From contig CM073324.1 in the NCBI GenBank assembly GCA_037043015.1, positions 2,535,413 to 2,599,412 of the forward strand: a DNA stretch of 64,000 nucleotides, written 5' to 3'. Shown here piece after piece: positions 32,101 through 61,531 of the stretch. The notes beneath the pieces were generated by a model. The model was not told the DNA's origin. It searched no databases and saw only the letters and a list, made by a program, of their open reading frames with translations. The position numbers and the translations under genes are program-made. Position 1 is the stretch's first letter, and each line of letters opens with the position of its first letter. The DNA comes from Bryum argenteum (Eukaryota; Streptophyta; Bryopsida; Bryales; Bryaceae).

Positions 32101-33950
32101 ATGCTCCAACTCAATCAAGAGGAACCAAACGTGATTACTCTTATGAGCAGCTAAGCCAAGGAATCCTTGTTTTCACATCAATTGAGGAGGATGATGGCCA
32201 AGTCGGAGAGTGGATACAAAATAGCTCACTAGAGCAAGTCCTTGGTGGCGACACGGGCAACTTTAGCCCTTTATTTGACGATTTGAAGAGCTTCATTTCT
32301 AAGGTACTACTGTGTTTAATTATCTTGTGTTTATAATTGTTGGACATGTCGACCCCTTTTTGATAGAGTTTTTGGCTAATTCCTTAAGATATTTATTAGT
32401 TCTTTACTGCATTGATGTGGTAAGTTTCATTTGAATTCATGTATGTCTCTTTCTGTATATTATAGCTCCAAGTTGATTAAGTTGCGCATACTTTATTGTT
32501 TTTTCTGAGCTTTCACATAACAAAAACATTGTTTATTCATGCGCAGCATTCAAGTGACAAAGCCCGGCGTTATAAGGGATGTGCTGCGAATGTACCCTGC
32601 GTAGACTTGATTCTTGCAGATCTTCCAGAGGGTCTTCCTGTTCCAGGAATTTCGAATCCACCTTCGTCTATCCCTTCCTGGAACATAGAATCTGAGGATT
32701 GGTTACAAACACTCTTTGATTTTGCAGACCATCACCTGCAAGACGATGGAGCAATAATTCTATTTCATCCATTCCGAATGACTACGAAGTCAAAAATACT
32801 TGGATATTGTTCCACGTATGGATTTGTTGTTCGTAAGGAGTGGTGGGGTATGAACCGCCTTCACCTGACGTCCCCAATTAATCAAGCCTTAACGGTATGA
32901 TTAAGTTTGTAAAACTAACTTTCCATTTCACTTGTTGAAATATGCATAATGATTTTTATCTTCTGTTGTAAGTAAACTAATAAACCTGTTTTTGTAATTT
33001 GCAGACCATGAGGTTTGGGATAACCTTAGTTGTAAGGAGCATTCCAGGGGTGTCTGCCTCCAGATTTTGCTTTCAACACATCCCCCGCACTAGACCGTCT
33101 CGGTGTTGATGTGGCACGTGATGACATCCTCGAACTTGGTGTCAAAGGAGGATCAAGCGATGGATGGACCCATGCCATGGCGTGGTCGTCGTGAAAAATC
33201 CGTCGTTCTCTTGCGCAGATGCTCATTGTGGCAACTTCTTCGCTGGAGATATTGTTCTAGACTCGCACTGCGACTACGGGTATGTTCTGATCTCTCTTCC
33301 TGTTTATATAGGTAATTGTTAGCAATTTCATATTAATATATTTCATTGGTGTTTGAAAGCTGAACTTCATTGTTGTTTTTATCTTGCAGGAGCTTCTATT
33401 CATGCGTGCCGCAATGTGAACCGTCACATTGCGGCATTAGAGGCTGATGCGGAAATATTTGATGCCTTGATTGCTCCTCTAATTCGATTTTCTCCTGCTA
33501 TTGAAGGGATATCAAGAGATGTTATATCTGAGGATCCCGATAGCGAAGTCATTGTTGTTCAGAAGATCGTGAAGAAGTCAAGGTTTAGTAAGTGAGTATA
33601 GCTATATTTCTTACTACTAGCGTTATATTTTACTACTAGCGTTATATTTTATGATTTACTTGTGTATGTAGCGGTTTTATGAACATGTTGTCATTTGCAT
33701 TTGCAGAAGCGGTAATTTGAGATACCCTATTCACCGCCCTTTTTTTTGTGACCCTAAGTTCTATCCAAGCCCTCCAAAGTCTTGGGAACTCCTTAAATAC
33801 GCAAAATGACGCGTGACCAATCGATTAGCGGAAGGTGCATATCGTACATTTACACCTAAGAAGTTGATGCTAAGAGGTATTGAATATGTTGATTTAGAAG
33901 CTGTTGAGTCTAAGGATGAAGGCTCTTCAGGGGCAGAGAGTTCGTCCTGA
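29156..33950 (+). CDS. ParB-like domain fused to a DNA-methyltransferase-like domain, 11 exons, degraded
   Basis: Probable exons: 29156-29212, 29427-30091, 30192-30387, 30619-30812, 30948-31117, 31252-31486, 31603-32303, 32547-32893, 33005-33279, 33390-33591, 33707-33950, all with GT-AG borders. The acidic N-terminus includes AIDLDSDEGQDE. Exon 2 holds a ParB/sulfiredoxin-like fold ending in FVCDGNHRRQAW. A charged middle (Lys/Glu-rich, about 31870-32040) follows. Exon 8 has VDLILADLPEG at the place of a methyltransferase DPPY motif, and DDGAIILFHP. Exons 9-10 have VLDSHCDYG and ASIHACRNVNRHIAALEAD, matching the FxGxG SAM-binding motif region. The motif order (IV before I) is that of beta-class amino-methyltransferases. 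ParB-methylase fusions are known from prophages. Frame breaks occur between exons 4 and 5, within exons 6, 7 and 9 and at the exon 9/10 junction, plus in-frame stops, so it is probably a pseudogene. Both catalytic motifs are also atypical. Confidence 0.6.
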
Positions 33951-34752
33951 AGTCTCTTTGGCATCATCTGATTAAGTTATGTCATTTTGATTATATGTTT
34001 TACATACAGTTTTATGTCTTATTGCCTATATGATATTATCTCTTTGTTTTTGATTGTTCGGTGTTCTTTTTGTGCAATGATCTTCATGAATTCTCTCAGA
34101 TAATGTATTCTATTTTAAAATTTGTTCATAAATATAGGGTTCATTTTCTATTCTTTGGTACTAGACATGTGTATTTCAGAATATTCACTCAATGAGCGAT
34201 GAACGTTACATATTTTGTTATAGAAATCTATTCTCAAATCTCAAAGCAGTCACGGTCATTTGATGAGATTTGAAAACTCGTTATGTGTACCCACTTGTCT
34301 AACTTTTCTTATAACAATCACTCCCTTGATTCTCAAAATTCCCCCAAGTGCATGTACCTCGAGACATAGGCATAATTTTTTCCCTAAAATGTTTATTTAT
34401 ATTCAAATTTTACTACCTAAACCAAGGTCATAGGGTATGCTTCACTCAACAATAAATTCCAAAATTTCAGAAAATGTACCTCTCACCGCTTACTAAATAG
34501 CTTTTTCCACAAAGAATGACGTAAACCCTAAATACATAAGAACTGTCATATTCACTTAATAATATTGATTATCTCAGAAGTGGTGAACTAAGACCCTTTT
34601 CCAATACACACGGGAGCAGAATCATCTACCACGGGTTTGGGGTACTTAATACCCTAAAAATAAACAATTAAACATTTTAATACAACCCATTCAGCGGTAA
34701 TAGGGTCTTCATCTTCGATAAAAAAAATTCAAATCGTGCAAAAAATTCACGC
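33951..34752. other. AT-rich noncoding flank
   Basis: This is the 3' flank of the ParB/methyltransferase-like gene up to the right inverted repeat. It is AT-rich and contains nothing I recognise. Confidence 0.5.
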
Positions 34753-47274: not shown

Positions 47275-47618
47275 CATATATGCTTGTTCTGCCATGCCCT
47301 TGTCCGCACTATTTGCATATACAGACGAGGTGTGATCGGGTAATCCACCCTTCACACTGTGCCTTCATCTCCTGAAAACTTAAGTGCTTGGTCATTCTCT
47401 ATGTCATCACCGCCAGTGAACACAATGATCATCATCGGCAAGATCTTCAATTGTGCACCGACAATACCAGTAGCAAAGCATTCACTCCATCTTCAGCAAG
47501 GTCTTCGGACCTCATTACTTCTTTGCGAATTTGCTCAGTTTACGGACTTCGTAGAAAAGCTTGCATATCAACTCATCCTGTCAGCAGTTTATTGCTCTGG
47601 AATAGATAGTATCTCGGC
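47275..47618 (-). pseudogene. AIG1/GIMAP-like GTPase pseudogene, 3' part
   Basis: The reverse strand encodes MMIIVFTGGDDIENDQALKF, which matches the conserved VVFTGGDxLE region of AIG1/GIMAP/Toc-type GTPases. Weaker matches to flanking parts of the same domain lie in other frames: FSTKSVN..NS upstream and DYPITPRLYMQIVRTRAWQNK downstream. Several stops and frame changes make it a pseudogene. Its upstream part lies on the other side of the hAT transposon (61524-61630). The call rests mainly on one motif. Confidence 0.4.
47611..47618. repeat. hAT target-site duplication ATCTCGGC, left
   Basis: Perfect 8-bp match to 61524-61531. Eight bp is the diagnostic duplication length for hAT elements. 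Confidence 0.95.
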
Positions 47619-47638
47619 CAAGGTTGTCATATCGGGCG
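47619..47638 (+). repeat. hAT left terminal inverted repeat
   Basis: CAAGGTTGTCATATCGGGCG; matches the reverse complement of 61504-61523 except at position 14. Confidence 0.93.
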
Positions 47639-47820
47639 TGTTGAGGGAATCGGGCGGACAAAACGGACGTACGAGTTGTCCCGGACGGACGGGCGTGCCC
47701 GCCCACCTTGTTTGAAGGGGGCGTGTAATTTTTTCATGGGTAAGAAACTTTGCAGTAAAAAGCCACGTAGGATGTGACGTGTAAGTCCATCGTGGCGTCA
47801 AGCGGTGAAATCGTACCATG

Positions 47821-47875
47821 GCGAGTGAACTTTTGTTAGGGCGAGTGAACTTTCGAGAGGCGGGTGAACTTTTGG
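47821..47875 (+). repeat. Subterminal GCGAGTGAACTTT repeats, 3 copies at about 20-bp spacing
   Basis: Versions of GCGAGTGAACTTT start at 47821, 47841 and 47860. Regularly spaced subterminal motifs are typical transposase-binding candidates in hAT elements (inference). Confidence 0.6.
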
Positions 47876-47879
47876 GGCG

Positions 47880-48165
47880 GGTTACATTGGTGGCGGGGCG
47901 GGCGGGGGGGGGGGCGGGAGAGGGGGGTAGGGGGGGGGGGGTAGGGGCGGGAGGGGGGTAGGGGGGGGGGGGGGTAGGGCGGGGAGGGGGTAGGGCGGGG
48001 GAGGGGGGGGGGGGAGGGAGGTAGGGGGGGGGAGGGGGTAGGGGGGGGGGGGGGGGGGGGTAAAGGGGGGTAAGGGGGGTTAGAGGGGGTAAAGGGGGGT
48101 AAGGGGGTTAGGGGGGTAAGGGGGTAAGGTGGGTTAGGGGGAGGGGTAAGGGGGAGTAAGGGGGT
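47880..48165. repeat. G-rich homopolymer tract 1
   Basis: Runs of G broken by T, A or C, including a run of more than 20 G near 48040-48060. It lies between the hAT left end and the 3' flank of the transposase gene. The proline-rich open frames on the opposite strand are artefacts of composition. Confidence 0.85.
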
Positions 48166-48224
48166 TGATGCGTTTTCATTTATTTTTTTAAATTTTTCTT
48201 GAATTTTTCTTTCGAGAATTTTTT

Positions 48225-48420
48225 TAAATAGAAATATCGTAGTATTTACAAATTGATTCATGCATAGGTTGAGTGGTATTAGGCAAGGTATGCATATGAG
48301 CGGTTGGAAGAGTGAGGAGGGGTGGGAATAAGTAAATATGTGCACCCAAATCAAAACAATGTAATTAAATATGTCATAGGACTAAGTACACATGCATCGA
48401 ATAAGAGAAATTGCCTTATT
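48225..48420 (-). repeat. 3' flank repeat 1, shared with the kinase cassette
   Basis: This segment aligns with 59040-59200. Shared phrases are GATTCATGCATAGGTTGAGT, AATATGTGCACCCAA, CAAAACAATG and ATGCATCGAATAAGAGAA, in the same order and spacing apart from a small deletion. Both copies lie downstream of a reverse-strand gene and upstream of a G-rich tract, so it is probably a duplicated 3' untranslated region or terminator. Confidence 0.75.
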
Positions 48421-48790
48421 TTTCATACATAAGGCGAATGTAATGTAGTAAAAAGTAGAAAGCATGAATAATAATATGATATAATATAATTCATAGTGAA
48501 TAACGATACAACGTAGATATAAGGAAATTATATATATTCTCACAACACATAATCTGAACTTCTCTATTTTTTTTTTCTTTTTCAATAAACTTATGCACTA
48601 TAATAGACTAATAATAGTGTCTAATAAAGGACTACAATAATGATGAGAAGTTCTAAAATACCCAAATAGATAATATAAGTCCGTTCTACTTATTAAAACG
48701 ATTTGATCGCGCACACTTTTAGTGGATGTACCCTCCATGTTGGGATCTCGGATAAGGTCTTGGAAAACAACGTCATCATCATCGGGCGCC

Positions 48791-51700
48791 TCATCGCACG
48801 CGTGGGTCACCATCATCGTCGTCGCCGTCGTTGTTGCCACGTTCAATATCATTGTCGCCGCCGCTACCACTTGAAGAACAAGTAGACTCATTGCGAAGAA
48901 GGGCTATTTTTTCGCCGTATAGATTTTCATCAAGTCTAATAACCTTGTGTCTCTTTGCTCTGGGACACTCCCCATCCGAATTCACCGGCGGTCCTCTAGG
49001 AACAACAAAAGCTGGTGTTGATGAAGTGCGACCAGGAACATATGTGTCCACGAATGGTTCAATTACCGTGTTTGGGTTCCTCCCCTATTCCTAATGAACA
49101 ACGCCCGCTTGGCCTCGGAAGACAAGACATCGCCAACATTCTCGTCCCCTCCATCTACAAATTGTTCCGCAATGCCTCTAGGCCGTATCCATTTTGTAGT
49201 GGATGTTGAGCCTCCAAACCCTCCGCGGTCTATGTTTCCGCTAGGAGTGTTAGTTCCCCCACGTCCTCTAGCTCCGTTTCTTCCACGTGCTTGGTGGTAT
49301 TGTCCCATTGGATGATGGATAGCTGGCATAGGGATAATAGGAGGCCTCCCACGGGACCCATCAGATTGGGAAGCTCTTCCACTAGCATTTGTTGCTCCTC
49401 CACTAGTATTTGGTGTAGGTGTATTTAGCCCAGAGACTGTTCTGGCGACCGGAATATCCGCGTGCATAGGGTCAACATCATCGGTGAATTCGAATGCATC
49501 GTGAATCCTACTGATATTCGGATCAAGACATTGGGGCGCAACAACGGGTGTAATAGTTCTCCCAATCCCTCCCAATCTTGATGCATTTGGGCTATTTCCC
49601 ACTTCTCGCGGGGCCACATCTTCAAAACGATCCACAATTGTTGTATAGGTATTGGGAGTTCCAATAGTACCAATTGTGCCATCTTCTCCCTCGTTCTTGC
49701 TCATTATCCTCATTGTTTCCGAAAGAGGGGTGGTTGTAGTTAACATCATGAGCGGGTATGGTTTGATTTGCTTCACGATCTAGCCCATGATCGAATCTTC
49801 GTTTTCCGAATCCAACATCGTAATCCGCGCTTGATTGATGCCGACATTAGGGCGATTGTCCGGCGATGGAATGCAACGAGTAGGACTTGTACTCCATGCT
49901 CCAAAGACCCCAACGGATTGGCTCTTGGTCATCGTCCATTGCATCGTCTTCACCGTAATATTCCCTACTCTCCCTAGAAGGTCCGCACCTTCACCCCCAG
50001 AGATCCGGATTTTGTCGGTACTCTCTACCTTCCCAATTGGCTTCCATGTCACTATCGTCCTCTTCTTCTAGGAACTCTCGGTTGGGCTCATCTACCGGAA
50101 CTGGGCCGAGGGCATCTGGGTCTGAATCCTCTGAGTTGGCATTGTCTTCATACCAGCGAAGTGGTTCGGGCCCTGGTCTTTTCTGTAATACACGGCCATT
50201 GGTATAGATATACACTAATGTCTCTCGCTTTTTCGGGCCTAACCGATTTCGGCTCTTATTGTGCACAAATGAGTAAGCACTCCAATTACGCTCACATGAA
50301 CTAGCTGAACATGTGAGAGACAATATGCGTACCGCTATTTTGGAAAGGTACTGATCTCCAATCCTATACCACCATTGATGGGGGAGCATGTTCATTGCAC
50401 GGATGTCGAAGGCAATGTCGGGGCTATATGGCCTGCACCTTCGTCATACTCTTGTAATTCGGATATGACGTCTTCATACTTCACACCCACCACGTCTTTT
50501 AATTTCTGAATTACACGATATAGCGCACGGAGGGCTACGCCATCTTGCTTTAGCGCCGCATTCTCCTTGAGATATGGATTCAAGAGGGGCGTGCGAGAGT
50601 GAAGATCCGTAAAACACATGGCCCTCCTCGCTTTGAATGAATCCTCCAATATTGTTGCAATATCCGGTTGGACGCTAAATGGTGGATCCCGAATGAAGTC
50701 ACATGTTGATGCAATCCTTGTAGTATGAGCCATGCCTTACCCATTGCGGGTTCTCGCCATCAAACACGCGCGTAATGCTTTCAAAACCTCTGCGTCATGT
50801 AAATGAAATTCTTGCATCACGCGCCGAAGGCCCCATCTTCAATGGTGCGCACGATATTGCGCCAGCGGTGGTCGCCGCCCGCTCCCCTCCCATCCCGTCC
50901 CTCAAGGTATTGGTATAGTTCTCAACTCGGGATGGTCTTTCGGTGCCTCTAGGACAGGCTTGAGTTTGACGAGTCGGTCCATCATCAACATATTGCATGC
51001 AAAGCGCGTCTCCCGGCACCAGGATTGAGAGTTTAGGACTCAATTCACGAAATGTTGCCATTGTTGCATGATGGTTCCTAATATAATGGCACAACTTTCT
51101 TGCCCTCTCGATAAGGTCCTTGAAGATGTCGATTTTTGCCCAATCTTCCAATAGGAGATCCAAAGCATGAGCCATGCATCCTTGCGAGAAAATCCATGGA
51201 TACTCCTCGATGATACATTTCATTGCTCCAAGCATGTTTGCGGCGTTATCCGTACACACACCGCAATCACATTCTTAGGTCCCACCTTCTCAATGAATAC
51301 TTTGAGTTTGTTTGCTATATACGTCGCAGATTTTGTCTGCCCAGTGGTGTCAATGCTTCCTAGAAATACATCTCCAGGTGGGCACGTCATCATCACATTC
51401 ATGAGGGGCCTACGATTAACATCGTCCCAACCATCGGTGCATATGGACACCCCATACGCGGATTTTGCAAATCCGATTCTTGACTCAATCTCCTTCTCGA
51501 CTCGCAATCATTTGGGTTCTATGAGATTAGTCCCGAATTGGTGATAAGATGGAGGAACATAGTCAAACCTCGCCTTGGAAGTTGCTAAAACCGCTTCAAT
51601 AAAAAACGGGTTCCCCGCCACGTTGAATGGGATATTTGCGTTATAGAAACAATTTGCCCACTTTTCATCCAATTCTCTTCTCTTCGCGGTGTTCAAAGAT

Positions 51701-52314
51701 TCCTCCATGCTACGTTGGCGCATCGCTACGGACCTCGTAGAATTTGATGCGCCTCGGGTAGCCGACATGGAGTGTGGATTCTCACGCCCTCTACCACGCA
51801 CGCATCCCGGCCTCCTCGTGAGGACTTCCACCCCTCACTCCAACCCCCGTGTTTGTATCAACACCTACATGGCATGAAGAACCACTAGGAATTCCGTTGG
51901 AGGCACCATGTGTAGTAGAATCTCCACCGTACATGTCTTCATCACTCATTCTCGCGGGAACTATGCCCCCACAATTTGCAAACTGCTGCGAACACGATGC
52001 GGTACACAAGGGAACACACACTCTTCTCGGATTTCGGCATGTAGCCTAGGTGCATGAATGCTCGAATTCGTTTGTAGGTGAATGTTGTGTTGCAAAAACA
52101 CAAGTAATGTTCCCATCATCATGAAATTCATACCACGAATTCCACTCTCTTGTTGTCCTCCGTTGGCTTCCCATCGCATTCGAGCCTAAAGGATGAAGGT
52201 TCTAGTGGCCAATTTGGTATATCATGTAAACCCTCTTAATAATTCTTTGCTCTATTCTCTTGCCTCGAACCAATTTTGACATTACCTCATTGTCGCCTAG
52301 CGCCTGGTTGCCAT
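48791..52314 (-). CDS. hAT transposase (BED/DUF659/hAT-dimerisation type), disrupted
   Basis: The ATG at 52314 is chosen because it sits at the same place in a leader shared with the two cargo genes (TATA box 141 bp upstream). A BED-like finger (CFCNTTFTYKRIRAFMHLGY) lies at about 52100. The DUF659/RNase-H-like core has CTDGWDDVNRRPLMN, then CTDNAANMLGA and QGCMAHALDLLLEDW. The C-terminal dimerisation region (CERNWSAYSFVHNKSRNRLG) is at about 50280. An unusually long Gly/Asn/Pro-rich tail follows to about 48791, whose end is uncertain. Reading frame changes several times and a stop follows five codons after the ATG, so this copy is inactive as it stands. Confidence 0.8.
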
Positions 52315-52465
52315 CGTTGTAGAAAAAAATTGAAAACCTCCTCCCAATGTCTTTGAAACGCCCTTCCCAATCCCCAATCCAACCCTCACGAAGAGAAGTG
52401 GATCTTGAGAGCTAGGAGGGGCGGGTTACAAATGAGAAGTTCGCCCCTTATATAGTGGTTGTACT
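52315..52465 (-). promoter_or_regulatory. Core promoter and 5' leader of the hAT transposase gene
   Basis: On the reverse strand a TATA box, CTATATAAG (52447-52455), is followed by a leader containing GCTCTCAAGATCCACTTCTC and a pyrimidine/A-rich stretch that ends at the ATG. The block is nearly identical to 58291-58440, and its TATA-to-ATG spacing matches the kinase cassette. Confidence 0.8.
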
Positions 52466-52502
52466 CCATGGTACATGGATGGGAAGATGGGGATTTCAAT
52501 GG

Positions 52503-52945
52503 GGTAGGGCCGTAGGGGCGGGTTACGGGGCGGGGAAGGGGGGGCGGGAGTAGGGGGGGGGGGGGGCGGGGAAGAGGAAGGGAAGGGGCGGGGGGGGGGA
52601 AGGGGGGAGGGGGGCGGTGTGGGGGGGGCGGTGAGTGGGGGCCGGTGAGGGGGGAGAGGGGGTAGAGGGAGGGATAGGGGGGTAGAAGGAGGGTAGAGGG
52701 AGGGATAAGGGGGTAGGGGGTAGGGGGTAGGGGAAAGGGGGGTAGGGGGATGGATAGGTTATAGGGGGGTAGGGGGAGGGATAGAGGGGGGGTAGAGGGA
52801 GGGATAGGGGGGTAGAGAGGGAGGGATAGGGGGTAGAGGGAGGGATAAGGGGGGTAGAGGGAGGGATAATGGGGGGTAGGGGAGAGGGGAAAGGGGGAAG
52901 GGGGGGGGAAAGGGGGTGGGAGGTGGGAGGTGGGATAGGAGAGGG
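52503..52945. repeat. G-rich homopolymer tract 2, behind the transposase promoter
   Basis: G-rich with recurring GGGATAGGGGGGTAGAGGGA-like units of about 20-30 bp. It lies immediately upstream of the reverse-strand transposase promoter. The strand asymmetry (G on the forward strand) favours G-quadruplexes or R-loops. Confidence 0.85.
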
Positions 52946-53017
52946 AGTAAGGACACGTCTTTGCGTTTTTTAAATGTTGTTTAAATTTTTTAATTTTTTA
53001 AATAAAATGTTATTTGA

Positions 53018-54075
53018 AGAAGAATGAATTAAACATAATACCACCCACCAAGACATTCTTTAGTCCTAATATAAATTGTGATCGTAAAATCAAATATATG
53101 ATTAAACCATTAGGATGATAAATTTATTTGTAATATAGCATTGGGAAGAAGAATGAAATAAACATAATACCACCCACCAAGACACATTCTTTAGTCCTAA
53201 TATAAATTGTGATCGTAAAATCAAATATATGATTAAACCATTAGGATGATAAATTTATTTGTAATATAGCATTGGGAAGAAGAATGAATTAAACATAATA
53301 CCACCCACCAGTACATTCTTTAGTCCTAATATAAATTGTGATCGTAAAATCAAATATATGATTAAACCATTAGGATGATAAATTTATTTGTAATATAGTA
53401 TTGGGAAGAAGAATGAAATAAACATAATACCACCCACCAGTACATTCTTTAGTCCTAATATAAATTGTGATCGTAAAATCAAATATATAATTAAACCATT
53501 AGGATGATAAATTTATTTGTAATATAGAATTGGGAAGAAGAATGAATTAAACATAATACCACCCACCAGTACATTCTTTAGTCCTAATATAAATTGTGAT
53601 CGTAAAATCAAATATATGATTAAACCATTAGGATGATAAATTTATTTGTAATATAGCATTGGGAAGAAGAATGAAATAAACATAATACCACCCACCAGTA
53701 CATTCTTTAGTCCTAATATAAATTGTGATCGTAAAATCAAATATATGATTAAACCATTAGGATGATAAATTTATTTGTAATATAGCATTGGGAAGAAGAA
53801 TGAATTAAACATAATACCACCCACCAGTACATTCTTTAGTCCTAATATAAATTGTGATCGTAAAATCAAATATATGATTAAACCATTAGGATGATAAATT
53901 TATTTGTAATATAGCATTGGGAAGAAGAATGAATTAAACATAATACCACCCACCAGTACATTCTTTAGTCCTAATATAAATTGTGATCGTAAAATCAAAT
54001 ATATGATTAAACCATTAGGATGATAAATTTATTTGTAATATAGCATTGGGAAGAAGAATGAATTTAACATAATAG
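53018..54075 (+). repeat. 129-bp tandem repeat, 8 copies
   Basis: The phrase TTGGGAAGAAGAATGAA recurs at 53141, 53272, 53401, 53530, 53659, 53788, 53917 and 54046, with six successive intervals of exactly 129 bp (the first is 131). Units are AT-rich, more than 95% alike by eye, and have no spacers, so this is a minisatellite and not a CRISPR array. It separates the transposase cassette from the rest of the hAT. Confidence 0.96.
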
Positions 54076-54267
54076 AAGGTGGGATTGAGAAAAATAGCAC
54101 ACATTTTAAGAATATCATTTTTTTTGGGACGTGGTAGCTCGACTTTGAAATAGAGGGGGGAATTGGTTTGTAGTGGGGCAATCTTGAATAAGAGAGGAAA
54201 TACGGAAACTTCATTTCTCTCTTTCCTTGGATCCCCCTTGGCTCCTTCTTCCACCTACGGGTATTTT

Positions 54268-54332
54268 TAAAGTAATGAAGTCCAAACATTCCTCACTAAA
54301 GCCCGGATTTGGACTTTCCGGATATAGTGGGG
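54268..54332. repeat. Hairpin-forming repeat, degenerate copy 1
   Basis: TCCAAACATTCCTCAC ... GGGGATGTTTGACTT form imperfect arms around CCCGGATTTGGACTTTCCGG. This is a diverged version of the hairpins at 54810 and 55418. A C-rich tract follows it. Confidence 0.6.
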
Positions 54333-54371
54333 GATGTTTGACTTTTCTACGATTGTATTGAGTATGCCTTC

Positions 54372-54720
54372 CTTCCTCCTCTTCTTTCCCCTCACCCCCT
54401 CATCCTCACCCCCCGCATCCTCACCCCCCACACCACACCACCCCCTCACCCCACCACCCCCTCACCCCACCCCCTCACCCCACCCCCCCCCTCACCCCAC
54501 CCCCTCACCCCACCCCCTCATCCTCACCCCCTCACACTCACTCCCTCATTCTCCCTTACCATCTCCCGCCCTACCCCCCCACTCCGCCCCTACCCCCATG
54601 GTACCCGCCCTACCCCCCCATGGTACCCGCCCTACCCCCATGGTACCCGCCCTACCCCCCATGGTACCCGCACCTCCCCCGTAATCCGCCCCTCCCCCGT
54701 AACCCGCCCCTCCTCTCTAA
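54372..54720. repeat. C-rich tract 3 with repeated ATGGTACCCGCCCTACCCC units
   Basis: CCCCTCACCCCACC-type repeats followed by several ATGGTACCCGCCCTACCCC units. The proline-rich open frames here are compositional. The strand bias is opposite to tracts 1 and 2. Confidence 0.85.
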
Positions 54721-54728
54721 CCCACCCC

Positions 54729-55345
54729 ACGTAGTTTTTGAAAAAAATTTGCCTTCTCTCTCACCAATCTTGTGTTTTGCAAACAAGCATCATTAATGGG
54801 ATAAACAAATCCAAACATTCCCTCATTAAAGCCGGGATTTGGAGTATCCCGGATATAGTGAGGAATGTTTGGATTTCCAATGATTGGATTGACCATCATT
54901 CCACTCCTCTTCCACTTCCTCCCCTTCTCTCCTCTTCCCTCCCCACTCCTCCCTTTCTTCTTTTCTCCTCCCCCTCACCCGCCCCCTCATCCTCACCCGC
55001 CCCTCATCCTCACCCGCCCCTCATCCTCACCCCCCCACCACACCCCCCCTCACCCCCCCCCCCTCACCCCACCCCACCCCCTCATCCTCACCCCCTCACA
55101 CTCACTCCCTCATTCCCCTTACCATCTCCGTCCTACCCCCTTGGTATCCGCCCCTACCCCCCTTGGTACCCGCCCTACCCCCCCATGGTACCCCCCCTAC
55201 CCCCTTGGTACCCGCCCTACCCCCATGGTACCCGCCCTACCCCCTTGGTACCCGCCCTACCCCCATGGTACCCGCCCTACCCCCATGGTACCCGCACCTC
55301 CCCCCGTAACCCGCCCCTCCTCTCTCACCCACCCCACGTAGTTTT
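54729..55345 (+). repeat. About 0.6-kb duplication, unit 1 (hairpin plus C-rich tract)
   Basis: The sequence from CACGTAGTTTTTGAAAAAAA through CATTCCACTCCTCTTCC and into the C-rich tract recurs at 55336-55655 at a distance of about 607 bp. It contains hairpin copy 2 (about 54810-54874) and more TGGTACCCGCCCTACCCC units. Confidence 0.8.
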
Positions 55346-55655
55346 TTGAAAAAAATTTGCCTTCTCTCTCACCAATCTTGTGTTTTGCAAACAAGCATCA
55401 TTAATGGGATAAACAAATCCAAACATTCCCTCATTAAAGCCGGGATTTGGAGTATCCCGGATATAGTGAGGGAATGTTTGGATTTCCAATGATTGGATTG
55501 ACCATCATTCCACTCCTCTTCCACTTCCTCCCCTTCTCTCCTCTTCCCTCCCCACTCCTCCCTTTCTTCTTTTCTCCTCCCCTCTCCACCCCCCTTACCC
55601 ACCCCCCCCTAACCCTCACCCTCCTCACTTCCCCTCTCCCCCCCCTCACTTTGGA
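55336..55655 (+). repeat. About 0.6-kb duplication, unit 2 (partial) with hairpin copy 3
   Basis: The first roughly 240 bp is nearly identical to unit 1. Hairpin copy 3 (about 55418-55481) has near-perfect arms, CCAAACATTCCCTCA / TGAGGGAATGTTTGG plus CCGGGAT / ATCCCGG, around a short loop. The following C-rich part differs from unit 1. Confidence 0.8.
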
Positions 55656-55943
55656 TTGACATCCGCTATCGGTATGTTTGTTTTTTTATTGTCCTATCAT
55701 GTTTATAAGAAATTTATTAATTATTACAAGATTTAAAATAATTTTTTTCTCCCACTTAACTATTTATCAAGCTAACCATACAATGACACCATGATAATTA
55801 GCATTCACATGATCATATGATTATAAACACATGCATAGAGTGTGCCAACAAGTTTGCAAAAGAAAAGCATATGTATTTCAGTAGTGTTTAACGATATAGA
55901 AAAAGAGAAGTATATCTTGGTTGCTACATTAGAAAATCGACAA
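55656..55943. other. AT-rich 3' flank of the RING gene
   Basis: No coding sequence is visible. It follows the RING gene stop codon on the reverse strand. It is not obviously related to the 3' flank shared by the transposase and kinase cassettes. Confidence 0.45.
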
Positions 55944-58290
55944 TTAGTTCTCGTCCATTGCTGCACTGCTTGGGCCGGCGTCGGCATCATTCGTACCCTC
56001 CGGCAAATCTTCACCCCCGCCCAATCGAAGTCTACGAACTGCTGATCGAGTCCTCCTCGCAGGCCCGTCTTCTTCAAGAATATCCCTCAGGAATTGCGAT
56101 TGTTGCATGGCTCGAAGCATGCGTCCGGTTTGGGGACTATGTTGTTCCATCAGAAAATCAATGCTTCGGTGGTGTAAAAGGTCTGCCCAGTCGGATTCAT
56201 CCGTTGCCCAATTCATCTCGTAATCGCGGTCGGAACGCTCTTCCGACGAATACATCATTCCATCGGACTTCCATTTTAGCCCTTCTGGATGAATCCCAAA
56301 TCGAAACTCCTTGTGCGCTTTGTCCCAATACCCGTTGTAAACCTGGTAGAAGAAGTTTCGCTTGCCATTGGCATTTGAGACATTTGATGGAATTAAATGA
56401 TGGCAGGCCCTCGTAATTGCCTCCGGATCCCTTTCCCAACCGAATTCCAGGGCGGCCAACTGCTTCTCTATAGAAGTTAGAGACAATTTCCAACTCCATA
56501 CCAAGTCTTCTCCCCATTTCCCTTTGTGTTTAGGGGCATTGGTTTCATTATACTCCCAATGCGGTGGCATGTAATCCTCTAATCCAAAAAGATTGTACAA
56601 GCGCTCGTGGAAGGGAGATTTACATAGCGGACATCGTCGTCGAACAACCATGAAGCCAATCAGGCAAATCGGATGAAACACGTGGCGGCAAGTGCCTACG
56701 CAAAATCCTCCTTCAGGTCCAAATGGGTTGCAACACATCGCACAATTTTCACCATCCGTCACTTAACGTTCTTTGGTGTTGGCCACAATTTGGTCGCTTT
56801 CTTGATGTCCATCGTGTTTTCAAAATCCCACTCGTGACGGGCCCGGTCAATTGTTCCATCCGGTTTTTTGGCAATTCGTCGGAAACATCTCATCTACAAT
56901 TGCCCATGATGTCAAACCAAATACCCGCTCTTGGTTATGATCCTTCCATGTCCTATCGATCTTCCTCAACTCCTCGCCTATTTGGTCACCCTTGGCGACG
57001 GATAAAATGCATGTCAACTTCCACTGGTAGTATTGCTCACCATCATCGATTCATTCGACTCTTCAAGACCTCATTATCTCGTCGAACATCTACCAAATCA
57101 ACTTCAAGGGGTGTGTGAGACAAGCCTAATACCTCATTATCTGGTCGAACATCTACCAAATCAACTTCAAGGGGTGTTGCAAAGCGAGCCTAATCCTTCG
57201 TTGAAATCATTATCGAATGCCAAGGAGTCAAGCACACTTCCTATGACCAATCCGTTCGGACTAGTTAATGTACTAGGTCGTGTTTGTGATGTAGAAGCCC
57301 CCTTCCTTTTGCCATGGCCCCCTCAAGCTCCATGATACGTCTTTGCTTGGATGAGATTTCGCCGCTAGCTCTCCGCATGTCCTCTTTTAGCCGTTGATTC
57401 TCTTCCTTCAAGTGTTGATTTTCCGCCATCAATTGTTGAATCGGCCTTCTCTTGTATCAAAATGCTCCATCTCGACAGACAAATCTACCGGTGGAATTTC
57501 ATCAAGCACGCCCCCCACCACAACAACCTCCACTTCTTGGGGTTCAATGTTTCCCCCAATCGCATGAACCATCTCCACATCTACTATGTTGGGAAGTAGC
57601 CGCACCGAATCGGTTGTCTTACTTGGGCCAATGAAGCCATGGGCATAGGCTCTAATGATCGAGCTAGCCTCTTTCGCTTATTCCTTTCCATCGTTTTGCG
57701 TCGAGGTAAAACTATCTCGTGGGAGCCATCGGAGTCGGAATCAAGCGGGAGTCGACATATGGTTATGGGGGTCTATTTCCGTAGGTCCGCTTACCGTGGG
57801 AAACCACCCGGGATCCTCTACCGCCCAAGTTCCAAAGCCGGGAAACCATTTTGTACTCGTGGTGCTCGAGCCTTGCCTTCTAAACCCTTCACAAGAGACC
57901 AATCGAACCTCTTCTTTAAAATGATCTCCACATGAACGCCGCGCACTAAATATAACCCGACCTGGTTCTTGTTTGGTAACTTCGTGGTGTAAAGGAGTTG
58001 GTAAATTTGAAGACATCGGGAAAGGAACTCCGGGTTGGTGCGAAGAGCGCAAATTGGCCTTGTTGCTTCTCAAGTGTAAAACATGGCGTTCAGCCGAAGG
58101 ATTTGTCGATGTGGCACCACTCAATGTATTGCTTTGCATGGTCAAAATCCCATGGGTCGACTACATCTTGACCTACGAATGCCAATTTTAACGGATTATT
58201 TAACACATGAAGACGGGCCCGCTTGCTTTTTCCTTGTCGCACTCGTTCTTTGTCTTTTTCTTCCTTGCGGATCGCACCTGGTGTCGCCAT
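55944..58290 (-). CDS. RING-type zinc finger protein, hAT cargo gene, upstream half disrupted
   Basis: The ATG at 58290 lies 143 bp below a TATA box and opens MATPGAIRKEEKDKERVRQG (basic). The first frame ends at 58090 and coding continues with frame changes through a Ser/Pro-rich middle that includes an in-frame 63-bp tandem duplication (57069-57194). The last 273 codons (56762-55944) are fully open. They hold a RING-like finger (CAMCCNPF..CVGTCRHVFHPICL..RRRCPLCKSPF), then ERLYNLFGLEDYMP, KRNFFYQVYNGYWD and an acidic Ser/Gly tail. RING fingers usually act in E3 ubiquitin ligases, so a ligase role is inferred from the family. The open C-terminal frame lacks its own ATG at its start, supporting one long gene over two. 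It is clearly part of the transposon, not host DNA. Confidence 0.62.
57069..57194 (-). repeat. 63-bp in-frame tandem duplication within the RING gene
   Basis: CCTCATTATCTCGTCGAACA at 57069 recurs with one change at 57132. The 63-bp period preserves frame (21 codons). The duplicated peptide contains a PLEVDLVDVR-type segment. Confidence 0.85.
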
Positions 58291-58440
58291 CGTTGTAGAA
58301 AAAAATTTCGAAAATCTCCTCCAAATGTGCTCAAACGCCCTTCCCCGATCCCCAATCCAACCCTCACAAAGAGAAGTGGATCTTGAGAGCTAGAAAGGGC
58401 GGGTTACAATGGGGGAGTCCGCCTCTTATATAGTGGTTGG
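58291..58440 (-). promoter_or_regulatory. Core promoter and 5' leader of the RING gene
   Basis: The reverse-strand TATA box CTATATAAG (58425-58433) and the leader are nearly identical to 52315-52465. TATA-to-ATG distance is 143 bp. Confidence 0.8.
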
Positions 58441-58960
<520 letters not shown>

Positions 58961-59039
58961 TTTTATTTTATTTTAATTTTTTACTTTTTTTTTCTTTTTG
59001 TTTAATTTTTAAAAAAATATTTTTTTGATTTTCTAAATA

Positions 59040-59205
59040 TTTTTTTTCGTGGTATTTACAAACCGATTCATGCATAGGTTGAGTGGTATTTGGCAAGGTA
59101 TGGAACCAATAAATATGTGCACCCAACTCAAAACAATGCAATTAAATATGTCATACGAAGATGTACAAATGCATCGAATAAGAGAAGTTGTTTGCGTATA
59201 TTATA
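59040..59205 (-). repeat. 3' flank repeat 2, kinase cassette
   Basis: Homologous to 48225-48420 (see there). It lies between G-rich tract 4 and the kinase gene's 3' end. Confidence 0.75.
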
Positions 59206-59308
59206 TGTATGTGCACAATTGGAAGTACATATAGTATTGTAATTATCCATGCAATCCTTCTACATACAATAGGCACACGCTAACTTTGGGGACCGCTAAA
59301 CTAAATAG

Positions 59309-60957
59309 TCAAGTACGGAAACAACACATGGGCATGGTCCAATTAAATGGATACTTTTCCAAGGCCTCTTTAACATCGGACACGGTCAACCTTTTGGACA
59401 CATCCGGGTCTCGGAGGCCTTTAATTTGAACGTGAGGTACTCGTGATTCATGGCGCGGTCTATGCGGTGTGGCAAAAAGTACTTCATATCGTACTCTTCT
59501 TGCCAAATGTGTTGCGCTAACCACCCGGCGGAGAATGCATCGGCTGCCTTGGAATATATGTGTTTGCATTCCATAACCTCAAGGGGATTGTCGAACGCGT
59601 GGACCATACAAAAACCATAATTCCGGTGCCACCCATTTTCGCCATTTGCGTTCTTCATCCAACTTCTCTTGCTTCGCAAATCCATACTTGGATGGCGCTT
59701 GTTCCACCACTCGACTTGAAATCCCCCAATCACAAAGCCCGATGTAAACCGTATCTGGTTTCCAATCATCGAAATGCAATAGAACATTGGTTGGAGTAAT
59801 GTCGTTGTGGAGATAATTGTGTTCATGACACTTTTCCATTAATGACAAGCAACGACAATGCCAAGTCAAGTCGTCGTTTACGGAATGTTACAACCCAACG
59901 TAGTTGTCTATCGGATAACCACGAAGTTTCGCTCTTTTGGAATGTCGTCGTATTCCAAGTGATTTGGGATTTTTTGATTGATATGGATGTCAAAATCTTT
60001 GAAGCTACCTCCGTTCCACCATAGCGAAAATCCATCCATTGTTTTAGGATGCAAGTACGATAGTCTGATGATTCCAGGGTGCTTTATTGGACATCCACCC
60101 GCCTCATTTACGATTGCCATCCGCTTCTCCCTCTCGTTCTTCACGTTCGTCAATTGTTTACGCGCGAATGGAATCCAACTAGGAATATGTTGAAGTTTTG
60201 TAAGCACCACCTTAGTAAACTTCCCATATCCACCTTGGATACGTTGTCCTGGCATAGATACCACGGTAACGGTTGATTCTAGCCACTTGAAAGTTCCACT
60301 GTTGCAATGAGACATAAGAACATCCTCGGCTTTTAATTTCCATCTCTCATTCCTCTTCCCACGAGCTTTCGAAAAGGTTTGACCAAAACTTTTCACTAAA
60401 TCTAGCTTTGGAACTAGTTCGTCATCTTCAATTGTCCATTTGCTCTTGTCTGTCAATTTCTTCCCCGAAATATACGTCCATGCGTCTACGGTGTTGGTAG
60501 TCAATTCTACCACTCTGAGGTCCAACCATGCACCGTGGTCGTAGAAGTTGGTCCAATCACAAAGTTTGTAATTGTTTTCAAAACAACGCTCCAGGTATTG
60601 GTGAAGATCGTGACACAAATTGTGAAATCCTTCCTCATTCGCCCCAAGGTAAGACCTATGCAAATCTGCCATAGTTCGTATTTCATAGAAATGTATACCA
60701 CTCCGTCGAGCAAATTCGAGATACTCCTCGGTTGGCATAAGTGGTGTCTCTTCCTCCTGTAGCAAGATCGAATTGTTCTTTTTTGACCCTTTACTTTTTT
60801 TCTTTTTTCCCTTTCTTTTCCGTGATCCCGATGAAGAAGGGTTTGTAGATTCTGTCTCCTTTGGAATTTCCTCTATTTCTTCACGACGGTCAAGGGGGGT
60901 TTCCAAATCTTGATTTCCATGTCGCATACTCGAACCTTGGCTCCCTTCACCCTCCAT
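59309..60957 (-). CDS. Atypical protein kinase, hAT cargo gene, C-lobe disrupted
   Basis: The ATG at 60957 is preferred over the upstream ATG at 61026 because the TATA-to-ATG distance is then 143 bp, as in the RING cassette. Residues 1-349 are open. A Lys/Arg-rich nuclear-localisation-like patch spans about 46-60. An unknown N-terminal domain spans about 75-235. The kinase N-lobe has glycine loop QGGYGKFTKV (241-250), candidate lysine in FARKQL (267), helix-C glutamate in VNEAGG (about 285) and hinge-like SLWWNGGSFKDF. The C-lobe follows after a frame change and a stop, with catalytic-loop HNYLHNDITPTNVLL (ND in place of RD), CDWGIS in place of DFG, a VAPEL motif and a DPDVSKRLTVSDV segment. 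It is a Ser/Thr-like family; substrates are unknown. About four breaks make this copy nonfunctional. Confidence 0.68.
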
Positions 60958-61110
60958 TTCGAATCTGAGAAAAAAACGGCGAAAAACTCCTCCCTCGTGT
61001 TGAAAAACACCCCACCAAGTGCCCACACTAACTCAATGAAGAAGTAGTGCTTGGCAACTAGTGGAGTGAGGTGAAGAATGAATCAACTTGGCTTTTATAG
61101 GGGAGGGGAG
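60958..61110 (-). promoter_or_regulatory. Core promoter and 5' leader of the kinase gene
   Basis: Reverse-strand TATA box CTATAAAAG (61092-61100). The leader is more diverged than the other two but keeps the GAAAAA/CTCCTCC-like part before the ATG and the 143-bp TATA-to-ATG distance. Confidence 0.7.
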
Positions 61111-61159
61111 TGGAGGCACTTGGAGTGTGGTAAAGGAAAAGAAGGGTGGGCCCAACCCG

Positions 61160-61312
61160 GCCTCCCCCCCCGCCCTGGCCCCCCTCTCCCCCGCCCTGGC
61201 CTCCCCCTCCCCCGCCCTGGCCCCCCCTCCCCCGCCCTGGCCCCCCCTCCCCCGCCCTGGCCCCCCCCTCCCCCGCCCTGGCCCCCCCCTCCCCCGCCCC
61301 TAACCCCTTTCA
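61160..61312. repeat. C-rich tract 5: tandem CCCCCTCCCCCGCCCTGGCC-type units
   Basis: About seven units of roughly 18-22 bp, immediately behind the kinase promoter. Repeated ACGTGGCGCAT units follow (61334-61360). On the reverse strand the tract is G-rich. Confidence 0.88.
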
Positions 61313-61503
61313 CCCGCCCTGTCCTCAGCCTACGTGGCGCATACGTGGCGCATACGTGGCGGCCAAGTGGCTTGGTTTTTACCCAAACCCTTGCCACGTC
61401 CTCGTTTTTTTACCTAAATTAAAGTCAACAGAGGTTTGACCGTATCGGGCGAGCGAGAGCTCTATCGGACGGACAAGGCGGACGGACGGGCGGGCGGGGT
61501 GCC

Positions 61504-61523
61504 CGCCCGGTATGACAACCTTG
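61504..61523 (-). repeat. hAT right terminal inverted repeat
   Basis: Reverse strand reads CAAGGTTGTCATACCGGGCG, matching 47619-47638 with one mismatch. Confidence 0.93.
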
Positions 61524-61531
61524 ATCTCGGC
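61524..61531. repeat. hAT target-site duplication ATCTCGGC, right
   Basis: Exact copy of 47611-47618. Confidence 0.95.

Follow-up and report, generated by a model that had tools for sequence, protein, structure and literature searches.

A decayed 13.9-kb hAT transposon in Bryum argenteum and the multigene hAT families, with predicted kinase and RING genes, to which it leads

Transposons of the hAT superfamily are usually 2.5-5 kb long and are commonly regarded as single-gene elements. Here we describe a 13.9-kb hAT element that carries, besides its transposase gene, genes for a predicted protein kinase and a putative RING-H2 E3 ubiquitin ligase. It occupies positions 47619-61523 of a 64,000-nucleotide stretch of the Bryum argenteum genome (assembly GCA_037043015.1, contig CM073324.1, positions 2,535,413 to 2,599,412, forward strand), which we call the window. 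Like Ac, Tam3, hobo, Hermes and Tol2, this element and its relatives make 8-bp target-site duplications, have short terminal inverted repeats (TIRs, here starting CARGGTTG), encode a transposase with DUF659 and a hAT dimerisation domain, and exist also as short internally deleted copies. They differ from those elements in length (12.8-15.6 kb in 11 copies, 19.7 kb in one copy of a sister family) and in the extra genes present in two families.

We take VANC of the VANDAL elements to be the nearest precedent known for a transposon gene directed against silencing. As described in PMC5735166, VANC is an anti-silencing protein of VANDAL Mutator-like elements, and its targets often form tandem repeats. 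VANDALs are likewise plant DNA transposons with a non-transposase gene, and noncoding tandem repeats also occur in the elements described below; they differ in belonging to another superfamily, in that VANC binds DNA motifs and is neither a kinase nor a RING protein, and in that anti-silencing was demonstrated there whereas here it is only what we infer. ToxTA, a 14-kb transposon first called a hAT element (ToxhAT) and also carrying non-transposase genes, has been reclassified away from hAT by its authors; as described in PMC12506042, it differs in having a 2-bp TA duplication, 74-bp TIRs and a single copy. Starships, described in the same paper, are similarly large DNA transposons with accessory genes, and differ in using a tyrosine recombinase and in residing in fungi. 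Starship cargo is generally variable. Our search of the open literature, with subscription papers and Repbase entries outside its scope, found no hAT element carrying both a kinase gene and a RING gene. As far as that literature shows, this would be the first hAT described with what is very probably a resident protein-modification module, and it opens to experiment the question of whether transposons use phosphorylation and ubiquitination to act on proteins of their host.

The window copy is a decayed element whose three genes all lie on the minus strand, as judged from reading frames and domain matches, with the kinase gene by the right end, the RING gene in the centre and the transposase gene by the left end. 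Its features are as follows.

47611-47618, no strand: target-site duplication, left copy (ATCTCGGC), from comparison of the flanks
47619-47638, plus strand: left TIR (transposase side), from the TIR match and a genome pattern search
48709-52177, minus strand: hAT transposase gene, long form, in several frames here (an open 1164-residue frame in copy E3)
52303-52467, minus strand: promoter-leader of the transposase gene (86.5% identity with the RING-gene leader)
53016-54074, no strand: 129-bp tandem array, 8.2 units
55944-58290, minus strand: RING gene, encoding a WCHI domain, a coiled-coil-like segment, a RING-H2 finger and a C-terminal domain; the start codon was assigned by eye
55947-56762, minus strand: open 272-residue part of the RING gene, holding the RING-H2 finger
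58277-58445, minus strand: promoter-leader of the RING gene, homologous to the transposase leader
59312-60957, minus strand: protein kinase gene, frameshifted, with HND..N catalytic loop and DWG legible
61504-61523, minus strand: right TIR (kinase side)
61524-61531, no strand: target-site duplication, right copy (ATCTCGGC)

The left end reads CAAGGTTGTCATATCGGGCG from 47619, and the right end, terminating at 61523, is the complement of CAAGGTTGTCATACCGGGCG. The initial annotation had reported matching 20-bp ends and a perfect 8-bp duplication; the ends agree at 19 of 20 positions, and ATCTCGGC stands on both flanks without a mismatch (8/8). The hAT transposase that it placed inside is borne out by matches of the transposase pieces to Dimer_Tnp_hAT (E value 1.7e-9) and DUF659 (5.4e-10), above the Pfam curated cut-offs, and both a kinase and a RING gene are indeed present within the same ends, on the transposase strand. 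Its description of the element as complete applies to the ends and not to the genes, all three of which carry frameshifts (in the RING gene, within the N-terminal part). The RING gene extends past its 272-residue open frame, to a start placed by eye near 58290. DUF659 is matched far more strongly in the copy with the open 1164-residue frame (E value 2.3e-35), and candidate catalytic DDE residues of an RNase H fold were spotted by eye. The 8-bp duplications, short TIRs and dimerisation domain with DUF659 thus place the element in hAT, whose usual, non-defining format of one gene in 2.5-5 kb is exceeded by three genes in 12.8-15.6 kb.

The initial annotation proposed a genome search for the 20-bp ends. 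Across 258.8 Mb in 25 contigs, the TIR pattern with at most one mismatch occurred 579 times (287 + 292), and its reversed control not once (0 + 0), revealing a multicopy family. DNA searches with either element end scored 40 of 651 and 40 of 565 candidates. We fetched ten further copies, nine with ends 12.8-15.6 kb apart and one, E20, identified through its right end, RING and transposase matches. Counting the window copy, all 11 have family TIRs within one mismatch and their own 8/8 duplication, with every octamer different. Whether the same three genes recur in the same order within such duplications, as also proposed, is answered by the full-length copies: the order of kinase, RING and transposase genes is identical in 11/11. 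Copies were picked with RING and transposase matches in view, and 58 bases from the start of the kinase gene form part of the right-end query; the presence of the genes in the fetched copies is therefore not fully independent of how they were chosen.

The insertion of the whole unit is recorded by copy E8 (14.9 kb), which lies within a repeat. Its joined 300-bp flanks match 23 places in the genome; two are its own halves, whose overlap is the 8-bp duplication. The other 21 are unbroken copies elsewhere: 18 align across at least positions 1-299 with 86-98% identity, and the remaining three have 78-80% identity. Because these 21 target copies are uninterrupted and the two halves overlap by 8 bp, we conclude that the 14.9-kb unit inserted in one step. 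What inserts, with 8-bp duplications, is a 13-16 kb unit with transposase, kinase and RING genes. Shorter derivatives exist as well. Paired ends, read without the interior, define copies on C6 (5.9 kb), C7 (4.4 kb), C2 (10.6 kb) and C4 (C4:180641-185891, 5.3 kb), and 12 head-to-head TIR pairs spaced 320-373 bp, among the matches listed, indicate short internally deleted copies resembling miniature inverted-repeat transposable elements.

Linkage of the three genes was then assessed genome-wide, scoring the best 142 of 680 RING, 150 of 575 transposase and 116 of 732 kinase matches. Set aside were 36 of 122 kinase entries (34 extra fragments of listed loci and the matches at 35% and 28% identity) together with RING (15/144), transposase (5/150) and further kinase (2/115) entries and two fragments among the 81 entries of the 548-residue gene. 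All locus counts in this paragraph are among the matches listed. At 49 of 85 merged kinase loci a RING gene follows in the same orientation no more than 20 kb downstream, and 40 of these 49 distances fall at 3.2-4.5 kb; in 200 random placements, using assumed sizes for contigs C3, C6, C8 and C11, such loci averaged 0.8 and never exceeded 3. A transposase lies within 25 kb at 43/85 kinase loci, and both partners are present at 37/85. From the other genes' side, a transposase is found downstream of 42/71 family-1 RING loci, and a RING gene upstream of 42/60 transposase loci; the remaining 18 have a kinase in six cases and neither partner in 12. Two of these 18 were read. One (C10:15982241) was considered as an accessory-free hAT and rejected: it is a family-1 fragment at which similarity stops on both sides, with no family TIRs in the 9.9 kb read. 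The other (C1:28533553) is a copy from which a clean internal deletion has removed the RING gene, joining element positions 2501 and ~7148 in window-copy numbering, and no transposase-side TIR was found in the stretch read.

A second, divergent family occurs in the same genome, with a transposase ~50% and a RING protein ~37-38% identical to those of family 1. We read three copies, each with gaps or open ends. The C7 copy has a 789-residue RING frame, a 1073-residue transposase frame (DUF659, E value 8e-40) and three further genes sharing the WCHI domain of the RING protein's N terminus; its ends are unclear, with a high-copy repeat beside the kinase gene, and we therefore read two more. Of the three, only C1:27255963-27275704 has both ends resolved: it spans 19,742 bp between the ends CAGGGTTGYCTTAT (TIRs matching at 13/14 positions), is flanked by an 8/8 duplication of CTTCCAGC, and contains matches for the kinase, RING, 548-residue and transposase genes, its middle 10.8 kb being unread. 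Among the matches listed, 45/58 family-2 RING loci have an opposite-strand kinase 1.7-5.5 kb upstream, 22/58 have a transposase downstream within 40 kb, and 54 of 79 loci of the 548-residue gene have a RING gene upstream or a transposase downstream (13 have both).

A further relative was filed under another organism. An 801-residue RING relative (L048, 1879-4829) lies on a 4.9-kb contig assigned to a cyanobacterial metagenome-assembled genome; ~500 bp beyond it stands GACAACCCTG, the complement of CAGGGTTGTC, which resembles a family-2 hAT end, and the contig holds no other element end. We take this contig for eukaryotic contamination. It was the only match in a RING search of prokaryote genomes, and no RING or kinase relatives were found in viral contigs.

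The RING protein comprises an N-terminal domain with the motif YIEWCHI, for which we name it WCHI, followed by a coiled-coil-like segment, a RING-H2 finger and a C-terminal part with no Pfam match. The window RING match (E value 1.6e-5) falls under the Pfam curated cut-off, as do those of two further copies scanned; several database relatives have precomputed RING domains, and the best profile matches among solved structures are the RING fingers of RNF24, RNF38 and Arkadia. The protein collection yielded 26 relatives at 38-48% identity; the seven examined are 750-930 residues long, and relatives from other sources have the whole architecture in common. Of the eight zinc ligands in the C3H2C3 RING-H2 pattern, seven occupy columns that are invariant in 17 sequences, and the first His is replaced by Cys in relative P0020. 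These features point to a putative RING-H2 E3 ubiquitin ligase. WCHI is itself conserved, and the second family additionally encodes it in stand-alone genes; a search with a stand-alone WCHI protein returned six relatives of its own kind and one RING protein.

The kinase of the window copy matches Pkinase under the curated cut-off (E value 4.8e-7), and its relative P0002 matches above it. Five relatives at 42-72% identity share invariant K264, D381, N386 and D405 (the ATP-binding Lys, the catalytic Asp and Asn, and the metal-binding Asp); HND and DWG are legible in 9/11 family-1 copies, and family-2 kinases have HND in two of three copies and HNN in the C7 copy. The product is thus predicted to be a protein kinase with its catalytic residues kept. 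A kinase profile resembled VRK1/VRK2 (E value about 4e-4) in the catalytic-loop stretch, a likeness confined to ~60 aligned residues, and a single kinase sequence used as query gave no VRK match; we regard VRK kinship as a lead, not a membership. Two loci, L047 (942-2618, C1:4136441-4138117) and C1:2938443, hold an open 558-residue kinase frame that shares 73% identity with the family-1 kinase and lies in stretches 99% alike over 1 kb. The 6 kb read around L047 showed no family TIR, and this locus would represent either a third subfamily or a kinase that left the element.

Median pairwise ratios of nonsynonymous to synonymous substitution rates (dN/dS) among copies were 0.44 for the kinase; two parts of the RING gene gave 0.44 and 0.39, and two parts of the transposase 0.50 and 0.67. 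The filter applied, which required 70% identity in each match and a local identity of 0.6, leans to low dN. The best single case is the kinase comparison between the L047 and E20 subfamilies (dN 0.17, dS 0.88, dN/dS 0.195). We also expressed replacement-to-silent ratios relative to a context-matched null that guards against mutation bias, leaving out codons with more than one change. Singleton changes stood at 0.58-0.82 of the null; changes present in at least two copies, taken as predating the decay of most copies, stood at 0.44 for the kinase, 0.46 and 0.40 for the RING gene, and 0.33 and 0.51 for the transposase. Taken singly, this test is strong only for the main transposase part (4/1000 null draws); for the RING gene few changes were available. 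One family-2 transposase pair gave a dN/dS of 0.39. The dN/dS comparison that the initial annotation had proposed yielded values below one. One kinase pair gives clear evidence of purifying selection, and the evidence for the RING gene is weaker. The main argument for selection on the RING gene is how well its relatives are conserved.

Together, the constant order, the linkage and the second family make the accessory-gene hAT class claimed in the initial annotation well supported, and the kinase and RING genes are very probably the resident accessory module of a hAT lineage. Since the same set is found in two divergent families, we infer that both genes were resident before those families split, although the gene set may instead have been exchanged between families. 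Several observations weigh against this account. Among the matches listed, neither partner is present at 30/85 kinase loci, no transposase lies downstream of 29/71 RING loci, and 18/60 transposase loci are without a RING gene, 12 of them without a kinase too. Gene order differs between the families, the kinase being inverted in family 2. The kinase pair behind the ratio of 0.195 includes L047, with no family TIR in the 6 kb read; null draws reached the shared-change values in 51/1000 cases for the kinase, 340 and 140 for the RING parts and 106 for the C-terminal part of the transposase; and three family-2 RING pairs gave dN/dS of 0.51, 0.58 and 0.87.

The 5' regions of the RING and transposase genes have 170 bp in common at 86.5% identity, each with a TATATA-like box (by eye); the kinase 5' region gave no match to this leader in the same comparison. 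Both leaders are present in 10/11 copies (E20 has the transposase leader only), and the 129-bp tandem array precedes the transposase gene in 11/11, with 3-10 units matched. The hexamer CGGACG occurs 2-3 times per terminal 250 bp, against 0-2 in the middle 4 kb. On the mechanism that we propose, the kinase and RING genes would have been kept by selection as the hAT lineage spread. Because the two genes have a common promoter-leader, ligase and transposase would be made together, co-expressed from duplicated promoters, and basic stretches seen by eye suggest that the products work in the nucleus. There the modifications made by the RING ligase and the kinase would fall on host chromatin or silencing factors, or on the transposase, and would sustain transposition of the element; the tandem arrays and subterminal repeats may be binding sites. 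That the two proteins aid transposition by modifying host proteins or the transposase is, in our judgement, rather likely, and so is the overall explanation that we consider best, namely that the window holds a decayed copy of a multigene hAT whose resident kinase and RING genes aided transposition. Apparently long-standing residents of this kind are suggestive of a jumping gene equipped with protein-modifying tools of its own. Counter-silencing in particular is a tentative proposal, somewhat less likely than not. The fullest version of the idea, which we would put a little short of an even chance when all its parts are taken jointly, is a giant hAT class that encodes a kinase together with a RING ligase bearing the new WCHI domain, one branch having several stand-alone WCHI proteins besides, a toolkit that would be co-expressed with the transposase, would disarm silencing or license transposition, and would be ancient and widespread in bryophyte-like plants.

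Action of the accessory proteins on their own transposase alone, through its stability or copy-number control and not through host silencing, is the alternative that survives best, and we consider it unlikely without dismissing it. The common leader of the RING and transposase genes fits it, as do the long transposase frames (1164 and 1073 residues), with a C-terminal extension in both families. Such an interaction is putative, however, and the kinase 5' region gave no match to the leader. Carriage of the genes as cargo serving the host or another trait, as in fungal Starships, is improbable. It would accommodate the open kinase frames at two near-identical loci, one of them read and found without a family TIR, but cargo usually varies between copies, whereas here the same set is found in two families.

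One-off capture, in which a single hAT copy acquired a host kinase gene and a host RING gene that were then multiplied as passengers, is more improbable still. Plant transposons are known to capture gene fragments, many copies are decayed, and the search for host kinase and RING relatives was confined to the matches listed. Capture is nevertheless rejected on the second family, with the same gene set and a transposase ~50% identical, on the purifying selection seen between two kinase subfamilies, and on the RING relatives from other sources, with their identical overall architecture. The weakest listed kinase match (28% identity, C1:26024459) itself sits in a sister element, and the 35% match at C1:32215332 was left unplaced. 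Composite insertion, with kinase and RING genes from other elements fallen into a hAT, is barely credible and is rejected, for although nesting does occur (1.6 kb inside the E6 kinase, 3.6 kb within the copy-B kinase, and the high-copy repeat that reaches the kinase of the C7 family-2 copy), the order is identical in 11/11 copies and each unit inserts with a single 8-bp duplication.

Lastly, we note some features of the surroundings. Contig C1 (44.1 Mb, 17% of the genome) holds 47/71 family-1 and 43/58 family-2 RING loci among the matches listed, and may be a sex chromosome or some other chromosome rich in repeats. The window contains at 33769-34071 an uninterrupted copy of the repeat that E8 entered elsewhere, and it has retrotransposon-like frames that are plant-like by eye. 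G- or C-rich arrays lie at 47895-48141, 52647-52920, 54389-55305 and 61167-61321, and a nearly pure run of G extends over 192 bases at 58524-58715.

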